A DNA stretch of 64,000 bases from Alphaproteobacteria bacterium (GTDB lineage Bacteria; Pseudomonadota; Alphaproteobacteria; Reyranellales; Reyranellaceae). This document shows positions 19,837 to 30,149 of this stretch, in pieces. The stretch covers positions 62,001-126,000 of the forward strand of contig JAFKFL010000013.1 of the NCBI GenBank assembly GCA_017308235.1. The letters run 5' to 3'. The translations under genes were made by a program, and so were the position numbers. A model generated the notes under the pieces. The model was not told where the DNA came from. It was given only the letters and a program-made list of their open reading frames with translations, and made no database searches. The stretch's first letter is position 1. The number at the start of each line of letters is the position of its first letter.

Positions 19837-21012
<1,176 letters not shown>

Positions 21013-21066: not shown

Positions 21067-21873
21067 ATGGAACCTGCGTCGTCTCGACAGAGAGAAATAC
21101 TTGCGCTGGCCCGCGTCCAGGGACGGGTAAGCGTCGATGGCCTCGCCGAGAAATTCGACGTGACGCCGCAGACGATCCGCAAGGACCTCAACGACCTTTG
21201 TGAACAACGGCTGCTGAGCCGCATTCACGGCGGCGCCATCATCGCCTCCGGTGTCGAGAATACCGCCTACGAGGCACGCCGCCTGATCGCCGCTCGCGAG
21301 AAGCGGGCGATCGGGGACGCCGCAGCGGCGCTGGTCCCCGATCAAAGCTCGCTGTTCATCAACATCGGCACCACGACTGAGGAAGTTGCGCGCGCCCTCA
21401 TCGGCCATGAGGATTTGCTGGTCATCACCAACAATCTCAACGTCGCGCGCACGCTCTATCCCTATCCCAGCTTCGATGTGATCGTGGCCGGCGGTCCGGT
21501 GCGGCGAAGCGACGGCGCCGTCGTTGGCGCTGCGGCCGTCGATCTCATCCGCCAGTTCAAGGTCGACACCGCGGTGATCGGCACTTCGGCGATCGATGAG
21601 GAAGGAGCACTCCTCGACTTCGATTATCGCGAGGTGCGGGTCAGCCAGGCGATCATGGAGAACGCCCGCCGCGTCATCCTGGTCGCCGACCGGCTGAAGC
21701 TCGAGCGCACAGCGCCGGTCCGGATCGGCCATATCTCCCAGGTCCAGGTCTTCGTCACCGACCGACTTTCATCCGCTGGCCTGCGCGACATCTGCCTTCA
21801 GAATTCGGTCGAAGTCATCGAGACCGCACCGGTGGAAGTGGCCGGGCTCGACCAGGTAAAACAAGCGCGCTAA
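21067..21873 (+). CDS. glpR: DeoR-family regulator of glycerol-3-phosphate metabolism
   Basis: A 268-residue repressor: N-terminal DeoR helix-turn-helix (about residues 5-55, RQREILALARVQGRVSVDGL then VTPQTIRKDL), followed by a sugar-phosphate-sensing domain with NIGTTTEEVA and ITNNLNVA motifs. The inducer is expected to be glycerol-3-phosphate. It is directly upstream of glpD with a probable operator between them, so the name GlpR is well supported by context. The other DeoR options are less likely. Confidence 0.85.
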   Translation: MEPASSRQREILALARVQGRVSVDGLAEKFDVTPQTIRKDLNDLCEQRLLSRIHGGAIIASGVENTAYEARRLIAAREKRAIGDAAAALVPDQSSLFINIGTTTEEVARALIGHEDLLVITNNLNVARTLYPYPSFDVIVAGGPVRRSDGAVVGAAAVDLIRQFKVDTAVIGTSAIDEEGALLDFDYREVRVSQAIMENARRVILVADRLKLERTAPVRIGHISQVQVFVTDRLSSAGLRDICLQNSVEVIETAPVEVAGLDQVKQAR

Positions 21874-21887
21874 GCGCGCGGTTTTCT
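21865..21887 (+). terminator. Possible terminator at the end of glpR
   Basis: GCGCGC (21865-21870) and GCGCGC (21874-21879) can pair around a TAA loop that is the glpR stop codon itself. They are followed by GGTTTTCTT. The stem is short and the loop is only three bases, so this is a weak candidate. Confidence 0.4.
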
Positions 21888-21930
21888 TCGATTCGGCTCG
21901 CTTATGGCAATTTATAGGCGCAATACCGCC

Positions 21931-21992
21931 TTGCGAAGGCATATTTGGGCGGTTATATTTCGAATTAACAGAAAACGAAAATAATACGAAAA
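21931..21992 (+). promoter_or_regulatory. glpD promoter with GlpR-type operator half-sites
   Basis: TTGCGA (21931-21936), 17 bases, then TATATT (21954-21959) is a good sigma-70 promoter. Just downstream are TTTCG (21958-21962), CGAAAA (21976-21981) and CGAAAA (21987-21992). The last two are direct repeats 11 bases apart, like the TTCG/CGAA half-sites used by DeoR-type GlpR repressors. The region is AT-rich compared with its surroundings. Confidence 0.6.
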
Positions 21993-21993
21993 A

Positions 21994-23535
21994 TTGTCGA
22001 TAGATTTCGACCTCGCCGTTATCGGCGGCGGCATCAACGGCTGCGGAATCGCCCGCGAAGCCGTCCGGCGCGGGCTTTCCGTGTTCTTGTGCGAACAGGA
22101 AGACCTTGCTTCCGGGACGTCGTCGGCTTCGACCAAGCTGATCCACGGTGGGTTGCGCTACCTGGAACACTACGAGTTCCGGCTGGTGCGCAAAGCATTG
22201 CAGGAGCGCGAGGTGCTGTGGCGCATGGCGCCGCACATCGTGAAGCCGTTGCGCTTCGTCCTGCCGCATCATGCCGGCCTGCGGCCGCGATGGCTGCTAC
22301 GACTGGGGCTCTATCTTTACGATCATCTCGGCGGACGGAAGTTGCTGCCGGCGACCCGGACCCTCGATCTGCAGCATGATCCGGCCGGAGCGCCCTTGAG
22401 GCCGAGCTTCAGTCGCGCCTTTGAATACTCCGACTGCTGGGTCGATGATTCTCGTCTTGTGGTCATGAACGCCATCGATGCCGCACGGCATGGGGCGACC
22501 ATCCGCACGCGAACGCGCTGTCTGTCGGCTGACCGCGCCAACGGTGCCTGGAGCCTCGAGGTCGAGAACCGGCACACGATGGAGCGCAGCCGCGTGCGTG
22601 CCAAGGTGCTGGTCAATGCGGCCGGGCCTTGGGTCAGGAGCGTATTGTCCAACGCCGCGCCCGCCGATGCCTCGGTCAGGATCCGGCTGGTGCAGGGCTC
22701 GCACATCGTCGTGCGGCGGCTGTACGACCACGACAAGTGCTACATTTTCCAGAACGCCGACGGGAGGATTGTCTTTGCGATCCCCTTCGAACGCGACTTC
22801 ACCCTGATCGGCACGACCGATCGGGATTATGTCGGCGATCCAGCCAGTGTGAAGGCGAGCGAGGAAGAGATCACCTATCTCTGCGCCGCGGTCAGCGACT
22901 ATTTCCGCAAGCCTGTCACGTCAGCTGACGTCGTCTGGTCCTATTCCGGCGTCCGGCCGCTCTATGACGACGGCATTTCCGAAGCGCAGGCCGTGACCCG
23001 CGACTATGTGCTGGTGCTTGACGCGCCGTCGGGCGAACCTGCCCTGCTCAATGTCGTGGGTGGAAAGATCACCACCTTTCGACGTTTGGCTTCGGCTGTT
23101 CTCGACAAGCTCGCGCCGCATCTGCCGTCGATGCGTCCGCCGGCTGATGCTGCTGCTTTGCCAGGTGGCGACTTCCCGGTTCAGGGCTTCGATGCGTTGG
23201 TCACCGACCTTGGTGGCCGCCATCCCTATCTGTCGGCCGATCACGCGATGCGGTTGGCGCGCGCCTACGGCACACGCGCTTTCGTTCTGCTCGAAGGCGC
23301 ACGCAGTCTCGGTGATCTTGGCCGATCGTTCGGTGCTGACCTCACCGAACGCGAGGTCGGCTTCCTGATGGACCAGGAATGGGCCGAAACCGCCGCCGAC
23401 GTCGCGTGGCGCCGTTCCAAGCTCGGTTTGCGCCTGACGGCCACTGAGCTGGCCGAGCTCGACAACTGGATGACGGCACGCCACAGACGGCCAGGCACTG
23501 GCCCTTCGTTGCAGCGCGCGGATTACCGCGCCTGA
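21994..23535 (+). CDS. glpD: Aerobic glycerol-3-phosphate dehydrogenase
   Basis: Membrane-associated FAD enzyme that oxidises sn-glycerol-3-phosphate to dihydroxyacetone phosphate and feeds electrons to quinone. It has 513 residues, normal for the family. The FAD-binding GGGINGCGIAREAVRRGLSV motif begins near residue 10, and the SSASTKLIHGGLRYLEHYEF block follows at 46-65. It starts at TTG 21994, with a very poor SD, which is unusual for this window. GlpR and its putative operator are upstream. No glycerol kinase or facilitator gene is present in the window. Confidence 0.95.
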   Translation: MSIDFDLAVIGGGINGCGIAREAVRRGLSVFLCEQEDLASGTSSASTKLIHGGLRYLEHYEFRLVRKALQEREVLWRMAPHIVKPLRFVLPHHAGLRPRWLLRLGLYLYDHLGGRKLLPATRTLDLQHDPAGAPLRPSFSRAFEYSDCWVDDSRLVVMNAIDAARHGATIRTRTRCLSADRANGAWSLEVENRHTMERSRVRAKVLVNAAGPWVRSVLSNAAPADASVRIRLVQGSHIVVRRLYDHDKCYIFQNADGRIVFAIPFERDFTLIGTTDRDYVGDPASVKASEEEITYLCAAVSDYFRKPVTSADVVWSYSGVRPLYDDGISEAQAVTRDYVLVLDAPSGEPALLNVVGGKITTFRRLASAVLDKLAPHLPSMRPPADAAALPGGDFPVQGFDALVTDLGGRHPYLSADHAMRLARAYGTRAFVLLEGARSLGDLGRSFGADLTEREVGFLMDQEWAETAADVAWRRSKLGLRLTATELAELDNWMTARHRRPGTGPSLQRADYRA

Positions 23536-23555: not shown

Positions 23556-24611
23556 CTAGCCCTTCGCGACGTGCTCGATCACCTTGCGCATGACCGTCGG
23601 CAGGGCGCGATCGGTCATCTGGTCGACCGTGCACCAGGCGCTGCCGGGCGCGAGCTTGGCGAGGCCCGAGGTCGCGGCGACGGCATGCGCGACGGCGAGC
23701 TCAAGATGGAAATGGGTGAAGGTGTGGCGCACGCCGCCGTCGAGCACCTTCCATCGTGCCGGCACGGGCGCCTGCTTCAAAGCCTCGATGATCGACAGCG
23801 TCCCCTCGCGCCAGTCGCTTGACGGCACTTCGTCCATGCCGCCCAGCAAGCCTTTGGTCGGCCGCTTGCGCAGCAGCACCGCGCCATCCTTGCGCGTAAG
23901 CACGAAGGCAAGTCCGCGTCGCGTTGGCCTTTCGGCCTTGGGCGCGCGCCGCGGCAGCTCCTCCGCAATGCCCCGCTTGCGCGCGACACAGCCTGCCATC
24001 AGCGGGCAGATGACACAGCGCGGGCGGCGCGGCGTGCAGACAGTGGCACCAAGATCCATCATCGCCTGGGCGTAGTCGCCGGCACGGCGCTGCGGCACCA
24101 GGGCGGCCGCCCGCAAGTTGATCTCGGCCTTGGCGTCGGGCAGCGGCGTCTCGATCGCGAACAGGCGCGCGATCACGCGCTCGACATTGCCGTCGACCGC
24201 CGACGCCGGCTCATCGAAGGCGATCGCTCGGATGGCGGCGGCGGTGTAGGGGCCGATGCCGGGCAGCGCCAGCAATTCTTCTTCGTCGCGCGGGAAAACG
24301 CCGCCGTGATGTTCCGTCACGGCCCGTGCACACGCATGCAGGTTACGAGCCCGTGCGTAGTAGCCGAGACCTGCCCAGGCCGAGAGCACCTCGTCGATCG
24401 GTGCGCGCGCCAACGCGTCGACCGTGGGCCAACGCTTCACAAAGCGGTGAAAGTAGTCGCCGACCGTGGCGACGGTCGTCTGCTGCAGCATGATCTCCGA
24501 CAGCCAGACGAGATAAGGCGCGCTGCGTTTCCCCGCCGGCGCGCGCCAGGGCAGGGTGCGACGATGACGATCGTACCAATCGAGCAGGCGTGTGGCGTGG
24601 GTCATGGTCAT
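23556..24611 (-). CDS. mutY: A/G-specific adenine DNA glycosylase
   Basis: Removes adenine mispaired with 8-oxoguanine. It has 351 residues. The catalytic Glu is in SEIMLQQTTV near residue 40, the helix-hairpin-helix is LPGIGPYTAAAI, and the catalytic Asp is in SAVDGNVERV. The 4Fe-4S cluster cysteines are C-x6-C-x2-C-x5-C in CTPRRPRCVICPLMAGC. A C-terminal MutT-like domain (about 225-350) recognises 8-oxoG. The gene diverges from the DUF721-DsbA fusion and converges on glpD. Confidence 0.96.
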   Translation of the reverse strand: MTMTHATRLLDWYDRHRRTLPWRAPAGKRSAPYLVWLSEIMLQQTTVATVGDYFHRFVKRWPTVDALARAPIDEVLSAWAGLGYYARARNLHACARAVTEHHGGVFPRDEEELLALPGIGPYTAAAIRAIAFDEPASAVDGNVERVIARLFAIETPLPDAKAEINLRAAALVPQRRAGDYAQAMMDLGATVCTPRRPRCVICPLMAGCVARKRGIAEELPRRAPKAERPTRRGLAFVLTRKDGAVLLRKRPTKGLLGGMDEVPSSDWREGTLSIIEALKQAPVPARWKVLDGGVRHTFTHFHLELAVAHAVAATSGLAKLAPGSAWCTVDQMTDRALPTVMRKVIEHVAKG

Positions 24612-24645
24612 GCGAGAGGCCGTGGCCTAGCATAAGGAGCAGACT

Positions 24646-25740
24646 TTGAAAGGGTCCATGCGGGAAAACGGCTTTCGCGCGATCGGCGGAGTTACCCGGC
24701 AGCTCACCTCGGGGATTACTCCGAAAGGTGGCAAGGGACGCGGCGTTCCGCTTGCCCGCCTGAAGGTCGAATGGTCGGCGATCGTCGGCGCAGAGGTCGC
24801 GCGCGTTTCGCGTCCCGATGCGCTGGTGGCCGGACGTGGCGCCCGCACGACGCAGGGTGGGGCCATGATCCTGCGCTTGCGCGTGGCAGGTGCCGCATCG
24901 CTTGAGATCCAGCATATGGCCGATCGGTTGGTCGAACGGGTGAACGGCTATTTCGGCCATCGCCTGATCGACGAGATTCGCCTGATGCAGGGCGGCATTG
25001 CGCCGCCAGCACCGACACGGGCGCTGCCCGCTGCCGATCCGGCCAGCGTACGGCGCATTGCCGAGCGGGTAGAAACGGTGAAGGATCCCGAGCTCAAGGC
25101 GGCGCTCGCCCGATTGGGCACCCGCATCGCCGCCAGCCGGCGCAGTATCCTGCTGGGCGGATTGGGCGCGGTCCTGTTCGCGCGCGCGCCGCGGGCCCAG
25201 GAGCCGACCGAGGAGCAGGCGAAGGTGCTCGCGGTCCAACCTGATGACCATGTCCTCGGCAAAGCCAATGCGCCAAACCTCATCATCGACTATTTCTCGC
25301 TGACCTGCCCGCACTGCGCCAATTTCTCTGCCGCCGTGCTGCCGGACCTGCGAAAGGTCTTCGTCGATACCGGCAAGGCCCGCTTCGTCTATCGCCACTT
25401 CCCCTCCGACTCGATCGCGACCCATGCGAGCCAGCTCGCCGAATGCGCCGGCCCGGGCGACTTCTTCGACGCGATCGAGGTCTTGTTTCGCTCCCAGGTC
25501 GATTGGCTGACCGCCGCCGATCCCGAAACGGAAATGGTGAAAATCCTGGAGAAGAAGGGTGTTGCCGCCGGCAAGTGCCTCACGGACGACCAGCTTTTGA
25601 ACAAGATCGTCGCCGATGTGCAGAGCGGCCAGGTGTTGGGGGTGCGGCAGACGCCAACCCTGTTCATCAATGGCCAGAATTGTGGGAATCCCGGCGGGAC
25701 CGATGCCATCGGCAAGATTCTCCGGGATATCGGCCGGTAA
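24646..25740 (+). CDS. DUF721 (DciA-like) domain fused in frame to a DsbA-like thioredoxin domain
   Basis: A single 364-residue open frame with two parts. Residues 1 to about 163 are a DUF721 domain, related to the DnaB-helicase loader DciA (VPLARLKVEWSAIVGAEVAR, then EIQHMADRLVERVNGYFG). Then comes a signal-like segment SRRSILLGGLGAVLFARAP (about 165-183), followed by a DsbA-like domain with the redox motif CPHC near residue 222. The TTG start 24646 has AAGGAG at six bases. In related genomes these are normally two genes. In-frame GTG 25078 or TTG 25114 could start a separate exported DsbA, but neither has a strong SD. Confidence 0.75.
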   Translation: MKGSMRENGFRAIGGVTRQLTSGITPKGGKGRGVPLARLKVEWSAIVGAEVARVSRPDALVAGRGARTTQGGAMILRLRVAGAASLEIQHMADRLVERVNGYFGHRLIDEIRLMQGGIAPPAPTRALPAADPASVRRIAERVETVKDPELKAALARLGTRIAASRRSILLGGLGAVLFARAPRAQEPTEEQAKVLAVQPDDHVLGKANAPNLIIDYFSLTCPHCANFSAAVLPDLRKVFVDTGKARFVYRHFPSDSIATHASQLAECAGPGDFFDAIEVLFRSQVDWLTAADPETEMVKILEKKGVAAGKCLTDDQLLNKIVADVQSGQVLGVRQTPTLFINGQNCGNPGGTDAIGKILRDIGR

Positions 25741-25795: not shown

Positions 25796-26464
25796 ATGCG
25801 GAATATCTTGATCGTCGCCGGCGGGCTCGTGGCGGTGGCCGCGATTGCGTTTGGCGTCTATTCGGGAACGCGCCCGGCCTCGTCTGGTCCGGAGCCGACC
25901 CCGGCGGCCGCGACGGCGGCGCCGGACAAGGCCGCTATCCTTACCGTTCAGCCCACCGACCATGTCGAGGGCGATGCCAAGGCCCCCATCACCCTGATCG
26001 AGTATGCCTCGTTCACGTGCCCGCATTGCGCCCGCTTCAACACAGTGGAACTGCCGGAGATCAAGAAAAAGTGGATCGATACCGGCAAGGTGAAGCTGGT
26101 CTATCGCGACTTCCCGCTCGACGAGACGGCAGCGCGCGCGGCGATGCTCGCGCAGTGCGCGGGCGACGACAAATATTATGCTGTGATCGACATGATCTTC
26201 CGCGGCCAGGGCAATTGGGCGACGGCGTCAGATCCGATCGCGGAGCTTTCCAAGTCGCTGCGCATCGCCGGGATGGGCGAGAGTGAGGTGAAGGCGTGCC
26301 TCGCCGATTCCAAGCGGGTCGATGCCGTGACCGCCTCCTACCGCAGCGGCGAGCAGGTAGGTGTCGATTCAACGCCAACACTTTTTATCAACGGCGAGCA
26401 ATACAAGGGTGCGCGCTCCATCGAGGAGCTCGACGCGGCTTTCAATAAGATTCTGAAGAAGTAA
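25796..26464 (+). CDS. DsbA-family thioredoxin-fold oxidoreductase
   Basis: A 222-residue protein: N-terminal signal/anchor (MRNILIVAGGLVAVAAIAFG), a Pro/Ala-rich linker, then a DsbA fold with CPHC near residue 82 (SFTCPHCARF) and the cis-Pro loop DSTPTLFING near residue 195. It likely catalyses or isomerises disulfides in the periplasm. It is a paralogue of the DsbA-like part of the preceding gene. It starts at ATG 25796, 55 bases after that gene, and ends 28 bases before smc. Confidence 0.9.
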   Translation: MRNILIVAGGLVAVAAIAFGVYSGTRPASSGPEPTPAAATAAPDKAAILTVQPTDHVEGDAKAPITLIEYASFTCPHCARFNTVELPEIKKKWIDTGKVKLVYRDFPLDETAARAAMLAQCAGDDKYYAVIDMIFRGQGNWATASDPIAELSKSLRIAGMGESEVKACLADSKRVDAVTASYRSGEQVGVDSTPTLFINGEQYKGARSIEELDAAFNKILKK

Positions 26465-26492: not shown

Positions 26493-29400
26493 ATGGTCCA
26501 GTTCGACAAGCTCCGGCTTTCCGGCTTCAAGTCCTTCGTTGACCCGACGGAGCTCGCGATCGAGCCCGGCATGACCGGGATCGTCGGGCCCAATGGCTGT
26601 GGCAAGTCGAATCTCGTCGAGGCGCTCAAGTGGGTGATGGGCGAGACCTCGGCCAAGCAGATGCGCGGCAGCGAGATGGAGGACGTGATCTTCTCCGGCG
26701 CCGGCAGCCGGCCGGCACGCAACATCGCCGAGGTCATGCTGACGCTCGACAACAAGACGCGCACCGCGCCGGCGATGGTGAACGACGCCGACCAGCTCGA
26801 TATCGTGCGGCGCATCGAGCGTGGCCAGGGCTCGGCCTATTCCGTCAACGGCCGTGAAATCCGCGCCCGCGACGTGCAGACCCTGTTTGCCGATTCCGCG
26901 ACCGGCGCGCGCTCGACAGCGCTGGTGAGCCAAGGCCGCATCGGCGCGCTGATCAACGCCAAGCCTGCCGACCGGCGCACCATTATCGACGAGGCGGCCG
27001 GCATCACCGGCCTCTACGCTCGCCGCCACGAGGCCGAGCTGCGCCTGCGCGCGGCCGAGCAGAATCTTGCGCGTGTGCAGGACGTGCTGGTCGCGTTGGA
27101 GGAGCAGCACAAGGGCCTGAAGCGCCAGGCGCGCCAGGCCAGCCGCTATCGCAATCTCTCCGACCATATCCGCCGCGCCGAAGCCGCCGTGCTGGCGCTG
27201 AGGCTCGCGGCTGCCGAGCGCGAACTTGCGGAGGCGGGCGAGCGGCTCCGGGAAGCAGAGACGCAGGTCGCCGACCTGACGCGCTTGGTCGGCCTCGCGA
27301 CGACGGCGCAGGCCGAGGCTGCGACCGCGTTGCCGCCGCTGCGCAACGATGAAGCCGCGGCCGCCGCGGCGCTTCAGCGCTTGCGGGTGGCGCACGATGC
27401 GCTGACCGCGGAAGCCGAGCGTGTCGCCTCGGCGCAGCAGGACTCCGAGACCCGCCTGCAGCAGACCGATTCCGATCTCGGCCGCGAGCGCGGCCGCAAG
27501 GGCGATGCCGACGCGGCCATCGCTGATCTCGACGACCAACGCGGCAAGCTCGAGCAGGAACGGGTCGGCGAGGAGGATCGCGCCAACGCCGCGCAGCTCG
27601 CCCGTGACGAGGCACATGCCGCCACCAGCGCGGCGGAAGCCGAGCATGATCGCCTGACGCGGCAGATTGCCGACGATGAAGCGTTGCGCGCCAGTGTGAG
27701 TCGCGAGATTGCCGAATTGCAGGATCGCCTCGGCAGGCTCCAGGCACGGCGGTCGGAAGTCGCAGGCCAGCAGCAGGAGATCGAGAACGAACTCAAGGGT
27801 CTGCCCGCGCTCGGCGAGGTCGAGGCGGCGCTGGAGGCGGCCAGGATCGCGCTCGACGAGACGCGACGCCAAAGCGCGGAGGCGATCGAAAGCGCCCGCG
27901 AGGCCGAACGCTACGAGTCCGATGCCGCCCGCGCTGCTGTCGCCAAGGCCGAGGCCGAGCGCATCGACATGGAGCAGGCGCGTGCTGCAGAACGCCAGGC
28001 CGCCGAGCAGAGCCATGCCGCTGCTGCCGAGCTCCTGCAGAAGGCCAATGCGCGGCTGACCAAGCTGCGCGCCGAAGAGGCGGGTGTCGCGGCGGCGTTG
28101 AAGTCCGCCGCCACGTCTCTGTGGCCGCCGCTGCTCGATGCGCTGACGGTCGAGCCTGGCTTCGAGAAGGCGCTGGGCGCGGCGTTCGGCGAGGAACTCG
28201 AGGCGTCATCCGATCGCGGCGCGCCCGTGCACTGGCTGCCGCTCGGCCCGATCGCCGATGCGCCGGCGTTGCCCGACGGCGTGACGCCACTCGTGGCGCA
28301 TGTTCAGGCTTTGCCCGAGCTGGAACGGCGGCTCGCCTTCATCGGCCTCGTGGCCGACGATGCAACCGGCGCTGCGCTGCAGGCGGGGCTGAAGCCGGGA
28401 CAGCAGCTTGTCACGGCCGAGGGCGCGGTTTGGCGTTGGGATGGTTACACGATGCGCGCCGGCGCCCCCTCGACGGCCGCCGTGCGGCTGAGCCAGCGCA
28501 ATCGCCTGGCCGAGATTCGTCAGCAGATCGACACGCTGGCGGCGGAGCAGGCGACGATACAGGCACGTGTCGAGGCGGAGACGAGCTGGCTCGCAGCGGC
28601 CCGCAACGCCGAGAAGACTTGCGTCGAGCAGGCGCGCCGGCATGAGCGGCATGTGTCGGAGGCGGCACGGCGCAAGGCACAGGAGGCGGGCGAAGCAACG
28701 CGCGCGGCCGAACGGTCTGCGCAAGGCGCGATCGCGACGGCTGAGCGTGCTGCAACCGAGGCCCGTGACCGCCACACTGACATTGCGCGACGCACTGACC
28801 AGCTCAACACGCGGATGGCGGCGATCGAGCAGGTGGTGGCCGAGATCGCGGATGGCGTAGCGGACGCCGAGATGCGGCGGACCTTCCGTCAGGCCCGGCT
28901 ATCGTCGATCTCCGACACCCAGGCCGATCGCGTGACGGCCGGCACGCTCAGGGCGCGGATCGCCGAACTGCGGGCGCAGCTCGTCGAAGCCGAGGGTGCC
29001 TGCGATCGGCTGGCGCGCGAGGCCGCGATGCGCGCCGAGCGACTGGGCCAGATCGCGCAGGACCACGAGGGCTGGAGCAAGCGCCTCGCCGATGCCGACG
29101 GCCAGATCACCGAGCTCGACGCGCGTCGCGAGCAGATCACGGCAGCGCTTGCCGAGCTTGCCGCAAAGCCGGCGGAGATCGAGGCCAAGCGGCTCGCCCT
29201 AAGCGAGGAGATCGCCAAGGCGGAGCAGAAGCGCCAGGAGGCCGCCGACCGGCTCGCGATCGGCGAGACGCAGCTCAGCGAGGCCGACAAGGCACTGCGC
29301 CAGGCTGAAGGCGAGCTGGCGGGTGCGCGCGAGAGCCGCGTGCGACGCGAGGGCCTGGTCGAGCAGTCGACCAAGGACCGCGAGACGGTCGTCGAGCGTA

Positions 29401-30149
29401 TCGTCGAGCGGCTGCGCTGCGAGCCCGACGGCGTGCTGGCGCTGGCCGAGGTCCAGTCGCTGGAGGAGCTGCCCGAGATCGAGAAGGCCGAGCACAAGCT
29501 CGAGCGACTGGTGCACGAGCGCGAGACGATGGGAGCCGTGAACCTGCGCGCCGAAGAGGAGGCCAACGAACTTGAGCAGCAGATCACCGGCATGACGGCC
29601 GAGCGCGACGATCTGGTCGCCGCGATCGGCCGCCTGCGCCAAGGTATCCAGAGTCTCAACCGCGAAGGCCGCGAGCGCTTCCTCGCCGCCTTCGAGCATG
29701 TGAGCGGCCACTTCCAGCAGCTCTTCACCAAACTGTTCGGCGGCGGCAAGGCGGAGCTTCGGCTCACCGAGTCGGAGGATCCGCTCGAGGCCGGTCTCGA
29801 GATCCATGCCAGCCCGCCGGGCAAGAAGCTGCAGGTGATGTCGCTTCTGTCGGGCGGCGAGCAGGCGCTGACCGCCCTGTCGCTCCTGTTCGCGGTGTTC
29901 ATGACCAACCCGGCGCCGATCTGCGTGCTGGACGAGGTGGACGCGCCGCTGGACGACCTGAACGTGGAGCGCTTCTGCGCGCTGGTGCAAGAGATCGCAG
30001 GCCGGACCGACACGCGCTTCCTGATCATCACCCACCATCGCGTCACCATGGCGCGGATGGACCGCCTGTACGGCGTCACCATGGCCGAGCGCGGCGTGTC
30101 GCAGCTCGTTTCAGTCAACCTGATGGAGGCCGACAGGATGGTGGCTTAG
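26493..30149 (+). CDS. smc: Chromosome segregation protein SMC
   Basis: A 1218-residue condensin ATPase that organises and segregates the chromosome with ScpA/ScpB (not in this window). Walker A is GPNGCGKSN near residue 33, the signature is LLSGGEQALTALSLL, and Walker B is ICVLDEVDAPLDD near residue 1150. Two long coiled coils, very rich in Glu, Ala, Arg and Gln, flank a hinge at about residues 510-690. It probably shares a transcript with the two thioredoxin-fold genes upstream and ends in a strong terminator. Confidence 0.97.
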   Translation: MVQFDKLRLSGFKSFVDPTELAIEPGMTGIVGPNGCGKSNLVEALKWVMGETSAKQMRGSEMEDVIFSGAGSRPARNIAEVMLTLDNKTRTAPAMVNDADQLDIVRRIERGQGSAYSVNGREIRARDVQTLFADSATGARSTALVSQGRIGALINAKPADRRTIIDEAAGITGLYARRHEAELRLRAAEQNLARVQDVLVALEEQHKGLKRQARQASRYRNLSDHIRRAEAAVLALRLAAAERELAEAGERLREAETQVADLTRLVGLATTAQAEAATALPPLRNDEAAAAAALQRLRVAHDALTAEAERVASAQQDSETRLQQTDSDLGRERGRKGDADAAIADLDDQRGKLEQERVGEEDRANAAQLARDEAHAATSAAEAEHDRLTRQIADDEALRASVSREIAELQDRLGRLQARRSEVAGQQQEIENELKGLPALGEVEAALEAARIALDETRRQSAEAIESAREAERYESDAARAAVAKAEAERIDMEQARAAERQAAEQSHAAAAELLQKANARLTKLRAEEAGVAAALKSAATSLWPPLLDALTVEPGFEKALGAAFGEELEASSDRGAPVHWLPLGPIADAPALPDGVTPLVAHVQALPELERRLAFIGLVADDATGAALQAGLKPGQQLVTAEGAVWRWDGYTMRAGAPSTAAVRLSQRNRLAEIRQQIDTLAAEQATIQARVEAETSWLAAARNAEKTCVEQARRHERHVSEAARRKAQEAGEATRAAERSAQGAIATAERAATEARDRHTDIARRTDQLNTRMAAIEQVVAEIADGVADAEMRRTFRQARLSSISDTQADRVTAGTLRARIAELRAQLVEAEGACDRLAREAAMRAERLGQIAQDHEGWSKRLADADGQITELDARREQITAALAELAAKPAEIEAKRLALSEEIAKAEQKRQEAADRLAIGETQLSEADKALRQAEGELAGARESRVRREGLVEQSTKDRETVVERIVERLRCEPDGVLALAEVQSLEELPEIEKAEHKLERLVHERETMGAVNLRAEEEANELEQQITGMTAERDDLVAAIGRLRQGIQSLNREGRERFLAAFEHVSGHFQQLFTKLFGGGKAELRLTESEDPLEAGLEIHASPPGKKLQVMSLLSGGEQALTALSLLFAVFMTNPAPICVLDEVDAPLDDLNVERFCALVQEIAGRTDTRFLIITHHRVTMARMDRLYGVTMAERGVSQLVSVNLMEADRMVA

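Follow-up and report, generated by a model that had tools for sequence, protein, structure and literature searches.

Background

Helicase loaders of the DciA family are essential and act on chromosomal DNA where they have been studied. In Bradyrhizobium, FbcH (cytochrome b / c1) is a polyprotein with an internal signal before the second protein, where it is cut by signal peptidase. Actinobacterial Rieske proteins contain an internal twin-arginine motif (PMC5449189, PMC7317946). The DciA of C. crescentus contacts DnaB through Leu163, Leu167 and Leu170 and ends at residue 179 (PMC9825169), and its Arg106 is a residue that binds ssDNA (PMC12547741). The usual setting of dciA in Alphaproteobacteria is between mutY and trx-smc (PMC5109545). 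Here we describe a gene, present in one genus and in a related one, in which dciA is fused in frame to a dsbA-like gene, so that a protein of replication apparently arises as the inner part of a precursor that crosses the membrane. A search of the open-access literature, outside which most subscription journals lie, found no published account of this fusion and no papers pairing DciA with DsbA, or DUF721 with thioredoxin.

Results and discussion

Organization of the fused gene

The window, that is the whole stretch of 64,000 nucleotides analyzed, harbors on its forward strand an open frame (24646-25740, 364 aa) that begins with TTG, ends with TAA (25738-25740) and, according to Pfam, joins DciA (PF05258) to a DsbA-like Thioredoxin_4 domain. 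A preliminary description of this DNA had proposed a stop-free fusion frame from TTG 24646 preceded by AAGGAG; the frame was confirmed, and the Shine-Dalgarno-like sequence is present at 24634-24639 (+). A GGAG-type motif precedes the conserved start in 40 of the 51 relatives that have a start codon there. ATG 24658, located four codons past the TTG, is an alternative start, and both are kept in most relatives. The counts out of 56 given below refer to 55 full-length copies from the same genus, including that of the window, plus the copy of G063, which belongs to another genus of the family (46% identity).

The KH-like DciA/DUF721 domain covers residues 25-113 (24718-24984, +; PF05258, E 3e-8), and its score of 34.1 bits exceeds the gathering threshold (curated cut-off 24). 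The earlier assignment of DUF721 up to about residue 163 was therefore too long for the Pfam domain, which ends near 113, and residues 143-161 are a separate element, the DnaB-binding helix of DciA. The two are connected by a variable Pro/Ala-rich linker (residues 118-142; 24997-25071, +) with low conservation and a dN/dS of 0.23. In the C-terminal helix DPELKAALARLG (residues 147-158; 25084-25119, +), Leu150, Leu154 and Leu157 are invariant (56/56) and have the spacing (i, i+4, i+7) of the C. crescentus leucines. His90 and Arg98 of the DUF721 domain are likewise found in 56/56 sequences; Arg98 is the probable counterpart of C. crescentus Arg106, with the register taken from the His98-Arg106 spacing (PMC12547741) and not from a direct alignment.

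The distance from the last DnaB-binding leucine to the twin arginine is 7-8 residues in 53 sequences and 11-12 in the other three. Since the leucines and Arg98 are invariant and the twin arginine follows so closely, DciA is complete and its natural C-terminus is the fusion point. The C. crescentus protein stops about 9 residues past Leu170, whereas the fused frame continues through an export signal to a further domain.

The junction has the RR-containing hydrophobic segment that had been noticed before. The twin arginine R165-R166 (RRSIL; 25138-25143, +), which starts the putative internal signal, is invariant (56/56), as is the pattern RRx-phi-phi (a free position, then two hydrophobic or Ala residues). 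Then come a Gly/Ala-rich hydrophobic h-region and a basic c-region (residues 167-184; 25144-25197, +), and Ala184-Gln185 (25195-25200, +) is present in 56/56. The stretch from RR to Ala-Gln measures 18-22 residues, with 38% Gly+Ala and moderate hydrophobicity (KD averaging 2.1 over the best 13 residues), and 46 of the 56 sequences have a basic residue near the predicted cut site. Signal peptidase I is predicted to cut between 25197 and 25198, at A184/Q185. However, position -3 is Leu in 21/56 and Pro in 11/56, which falls short of the ideal AxA site and counts against cleavage. The free DsbAs of relatives in which the two genes are split have signals of their own, several ending in Ala-Gln, and thus the junction segment is best read as a retained DsbA signal. 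In two split loci of one related genus (L067 and L069), the free dciA product itself ends in Arg-Arg. Part of the fusion's twin arginine may thus descend from the DciA terminus, and since it may have been inherited in this way, RR alone is no proof of Tat export. A Tat substrate would be expected to have its signal at a free N-terminus, whereas RR is found here at residues 165-166. To our knowledge, Tat or Sec signals are seldom preceded by a folded domain of such size (about 160 residues), and the precedents are partial. The genome encodes TatC, four signal-peptidase S26 matches and DsbB.

The DsbA-like Thioredoxin_4 domain occupies residues 199-359 (25240-25722, +; PF13462, E 7e-32; 111 bits, cut-off 23.2), while PF01323 remains below its cut-off in this part (22.3 vs 25.6 bits). 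The nearest solved chain by sequence is 3f4r_A (E 3e-21). The CPHC redox motif attributed to this domain in the preliminary description lies at residues 221-224 (25306-25317, +). CxxC is conserved in 56/56 and CPxC in 54/56, two genomes having CWSC or CAGC instead, and the cis-Pro 337 (TPT; 25654-25656, +) is found in 56/56. Median dN/dS is 0.13-0.24 over all parts of the gene and 0.13-0.19 in both domains, which indicates purifying selection. A structure prediction from two sequences reached a pLDDT of 42.5 and was set aside.

Genomic context

The fused gene is flanked upstream by the divergent mutY (23556-24611, -) and directly downstream by a second, free DsbA-like gene (25796-26464, +), here called DsbA2, which is followed by smc (26493-30149, +). 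This agrees with the mutY / dciA / trx-smc context expected of alphaproteobacterial dciA, and therefore the fused gene occupies the place expected for an ordinary dciA plus dsbA. Other genes of this region include a CcrM-type adenine DNA methyltransferase near the mutY-dciA-smc block (19936-21012; NCBIfam NF050803, 618 bits, below the cut-off of 830), and a DeoR/GlpR-type regulator with, after it, a glycerol-3-phosphate dehydrogenase (21067-23535).

Conservation of the fusion and a single DciA

We searched the genus, family and order. The comparison with relatives, which had been proposed as a check, showed that wherever a genome of the same genus has the locus complete, the fusion forms a single open frame, and there is no internal stop in the 55 full-length copies or in G063. 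Four further fusion loci end at contig edges and are outside the full-length set. Six genomes of the genus (G005, G008, G012, G032, G040 and G051) gave no fusion match. One of the carriers is a named isolate, Enhydrobacter aerosaccus ATCC 27094 (L033 = G010); we take the genus to be Reyranella in GTDB.

A profile search of a 41-genome sample of the genus detected exactly one PF05258 match, the fused gene itself, in 39 of the 41 genomes, and no second DciA gene was found in this sample. The other two genomes, G008 and G032, have no DciA anywhere in the genome; as neither shows any DciA, assembly gaps are likely. The fusion is genuine, being no artefact of sequencing or of chance.

Origin of the fusion

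Separate dciA and dsbA genes are found in the remaining genera of the family and in one further family of the order. A class-wide search (387 genomes) gave, among the best-ranked matches listed, no further one that covered both domains within a single frame, and of 40 further loci read from it, all 38 with both parts found are split. Long open frames had hinted at convergent fusions in G338 and others, and these were rejected, since every class locus read that has both parts is split. The genes of split loci are usually adjacent, dsbA mostly starting within about 200 bases past the dciA stop. There is one dsbA copy at the locus in split relatives and two in fused genomes.

The fused forms make up one clade in the DciA tree (SH-aLRT 98), and the fused DsbAs of both genera one clade in the DsbA tree (SH-aLRT 99), where the free DsbA2 clusters with the lone dsbA of split relatives. 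Mean identity is 0.577 for the fused DsbA against 0.706 for DsbA2, with the fused copy lower in 78/78 pairs, which indicates its faster evolution. The trees come from quick searches and have long branches, so where exactly the fused DsbA clade attaches is uncertain. They nevertheless point to one event. In the simplest history, dsbA was duplicated in tandem, then the upstream copy, adjoining dciA, lost its own start and dciA its stop, while the ancestral-type dsbA stayed downstream.

A proposed precursor with an internal signal

Translation of this stop-free frame necessarily yields DciA linked to both the signal and DsbA. The explanation to which we incline, with some reserve, is one precursor in which an internal Tat-like signal connects a cytoplasmic DciA to an exported DsbA, with probable cleavage at A184/Q185. 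Residues 1-163, with the DUF721 domain, linker and DnaB-binding helix of a complete DciA, would remain in the cytoplasm, and this half, being the sole DciA detected, would act as the helicase loader of the cell. The Tat-like signal (RR, a short Gly/Ala-rich hydrophobic stretch and Ala-Gln) would take the DsbA domain across the inner membrane, and signal peptidase I would probably cut after Ala184. This would leave DsbA in the periplasm and a DciA ending in the signal remnant, membrane-bound at least briefly, whose short membrane-inserted tail may be removed later. We infer this export route, the cleavage and the function of both halves from the sequence; export with cleavage after Ala184 is favored because DciA has to work in the cytoplasm and the DsbA fold is expected to work outside it, a segment resembling a cleavable Tat-type signal lies between them, and TatC, S26 peptidases and DsbB are encoded.

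The same unbroken frame and single DciA, and a signal invariant at RR and hydrophobic all along, would also fit a precursor that stays uncut, as a stable type II membrane protein whose DciA half faces the cytoplasm and whose DsbA half lies outside, tethering helicase loading to the inner membrane. Leu or Pro at -3 is suboptimal for signal peptidase and, with 32 of the 56 sequences concerned, would give poor cleavage in some species. However, Ala-Gln, nearly fixed at its distance past RR in all sequences, fits a cleaved signal, and a Gly/Ala-rich stretch of such moderate hydrophobicity would be a weak anchor, which makes an uncleaved protein possible but rather unlikely. The preliminary description had suggested a membrane-crossing protein, which the invariant RR, hydrophobic stretch and Ala-Gln, the single DciA and the shared junction support, and also a new tethered helicase loader. 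The latter is possible, but the conserved Ala-Gln suggests cleavage by signal peptidase, so a permanent DciA-DsbA tether is less likely. We are doubtful that in this clade the fused signal holds the loader stably in the inner membrane, with DnaB loaded at the membrane and in physical link with a periplasmic thiol-redox domain.

Nested genes in the same frame had been the other suggestion: an internal start would yield a separate exported DsbA, besides or in place of the fusion. Some in-frame ATG, GTG or TTG lies at most 30 codons upstream of RR in 54/56 genomes, a Shine-Dalgarno-like 4-mer precedes such a start in 25/56 (45%) compared with 17% of control stretches, and the commonest position, column 138, has the motif in 12 genomes. 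But the positions are scattered over columns 138, 142, 145, 150, 153 and 154, similar clusters exist inside the domains (17 at column 96 and 10 at column 297), and L063 and the 80%-identical relative L004 have no in-frame ATG, GTG or TTG within 45 codons upstream of RR. The window lacks a Shine-Dalgarno-like motif before any junction start, including both candidates put forward earlier. GTG 25078 reflects ordinary codon usage at Val145, as GTG is used in 32 of the 55 genomes with Val there (58%), against 51% of all Val codons, and TTG 25114 encodes Leu157, a DnaB-binding leucine that is invariant while a start codon occurs in fewer than 5/56. Synonymous change is undiminished at the junction (pS 0.35 vs 0.28-0.34). 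Start positions, the Shine-Dalgarno control, Val codon usage and the synonymous rate thus argue against nested genes as a conserved mechanism, and two proteins from one frame seem improbable here, lineage-specific internal starts being possible. The excess of Shine-Dalgarno-like starts in codons 135-166, about 2.5-fold over control stretches, lies chiefly at column 138. Early termination by frameshift was also considered and rejected, since the distance from the helix to the next out-of-frame stops was not consistent among the 14 genomes examined. If the DciA part were no working loader or the DsbA part were decaying, the fusion would be a tolerated relic, as the faster divergence of the fused DsbA and the two genomes without CPxC might suggest; but with the low dN/dS of both domains, the invariant redox cysteines, cis-Pro and DnaB-binding leucines, and no second DciA in the genus sample, this is very improbable. 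An error of assembly or sequencing, or a stop mistaken for a sense codon, has a negligible chance, given that 56 separately assembled genomes share this junction, E. aerosaccus ATCC 27094 among them.

Comparison with known systems

A whole genus whose only detected loader forms the front part of an export precursor offers a natural experiment: either one protein is cut into two working proteins across the membrane, or helicase loading takes place at the membrane. If the latter were true, the old idea of membrane-attached bacterial replication would become directly testable. The fusion further suggests that a twin-arginine-type signal may be placed behind a cytoplasmic domain of considerable size.

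The fused gene shares with the DciA of C. crescentus and V. cholerae the DUF721 domain, the presumed Arg106 equivalent, the C-terminal leucine helix and the mutY/trx-smc location. With alphaproteobacterial DsbA-like proteins (Thioredoxin_4) it shares CPHC, the cis-Pro and a signal-peptide-like region before the domain; however, in contrast to ordinary members, the fused DsbA lacks its own start codon, has its signal inside the frame, after a cytoplasmic protein of replication, and is accompanied by a free paralogue downstream. The actinobacterial Rieske proteins resemble the fusion in having a Tat signal inside the protein, away from the free N-terminus, but theirs sits behind Sec-inserted membrane helices, whereas that of the fusion sits behind a soluble cytoplasmic domain. 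FbcH has the same arrangement of two proteins in one frame, the second behind an internal signal. It joins subunits of one membrane complex, while the halves of the dciA-dsbA fusion serve processes that are unrelated and separated by the membrane.
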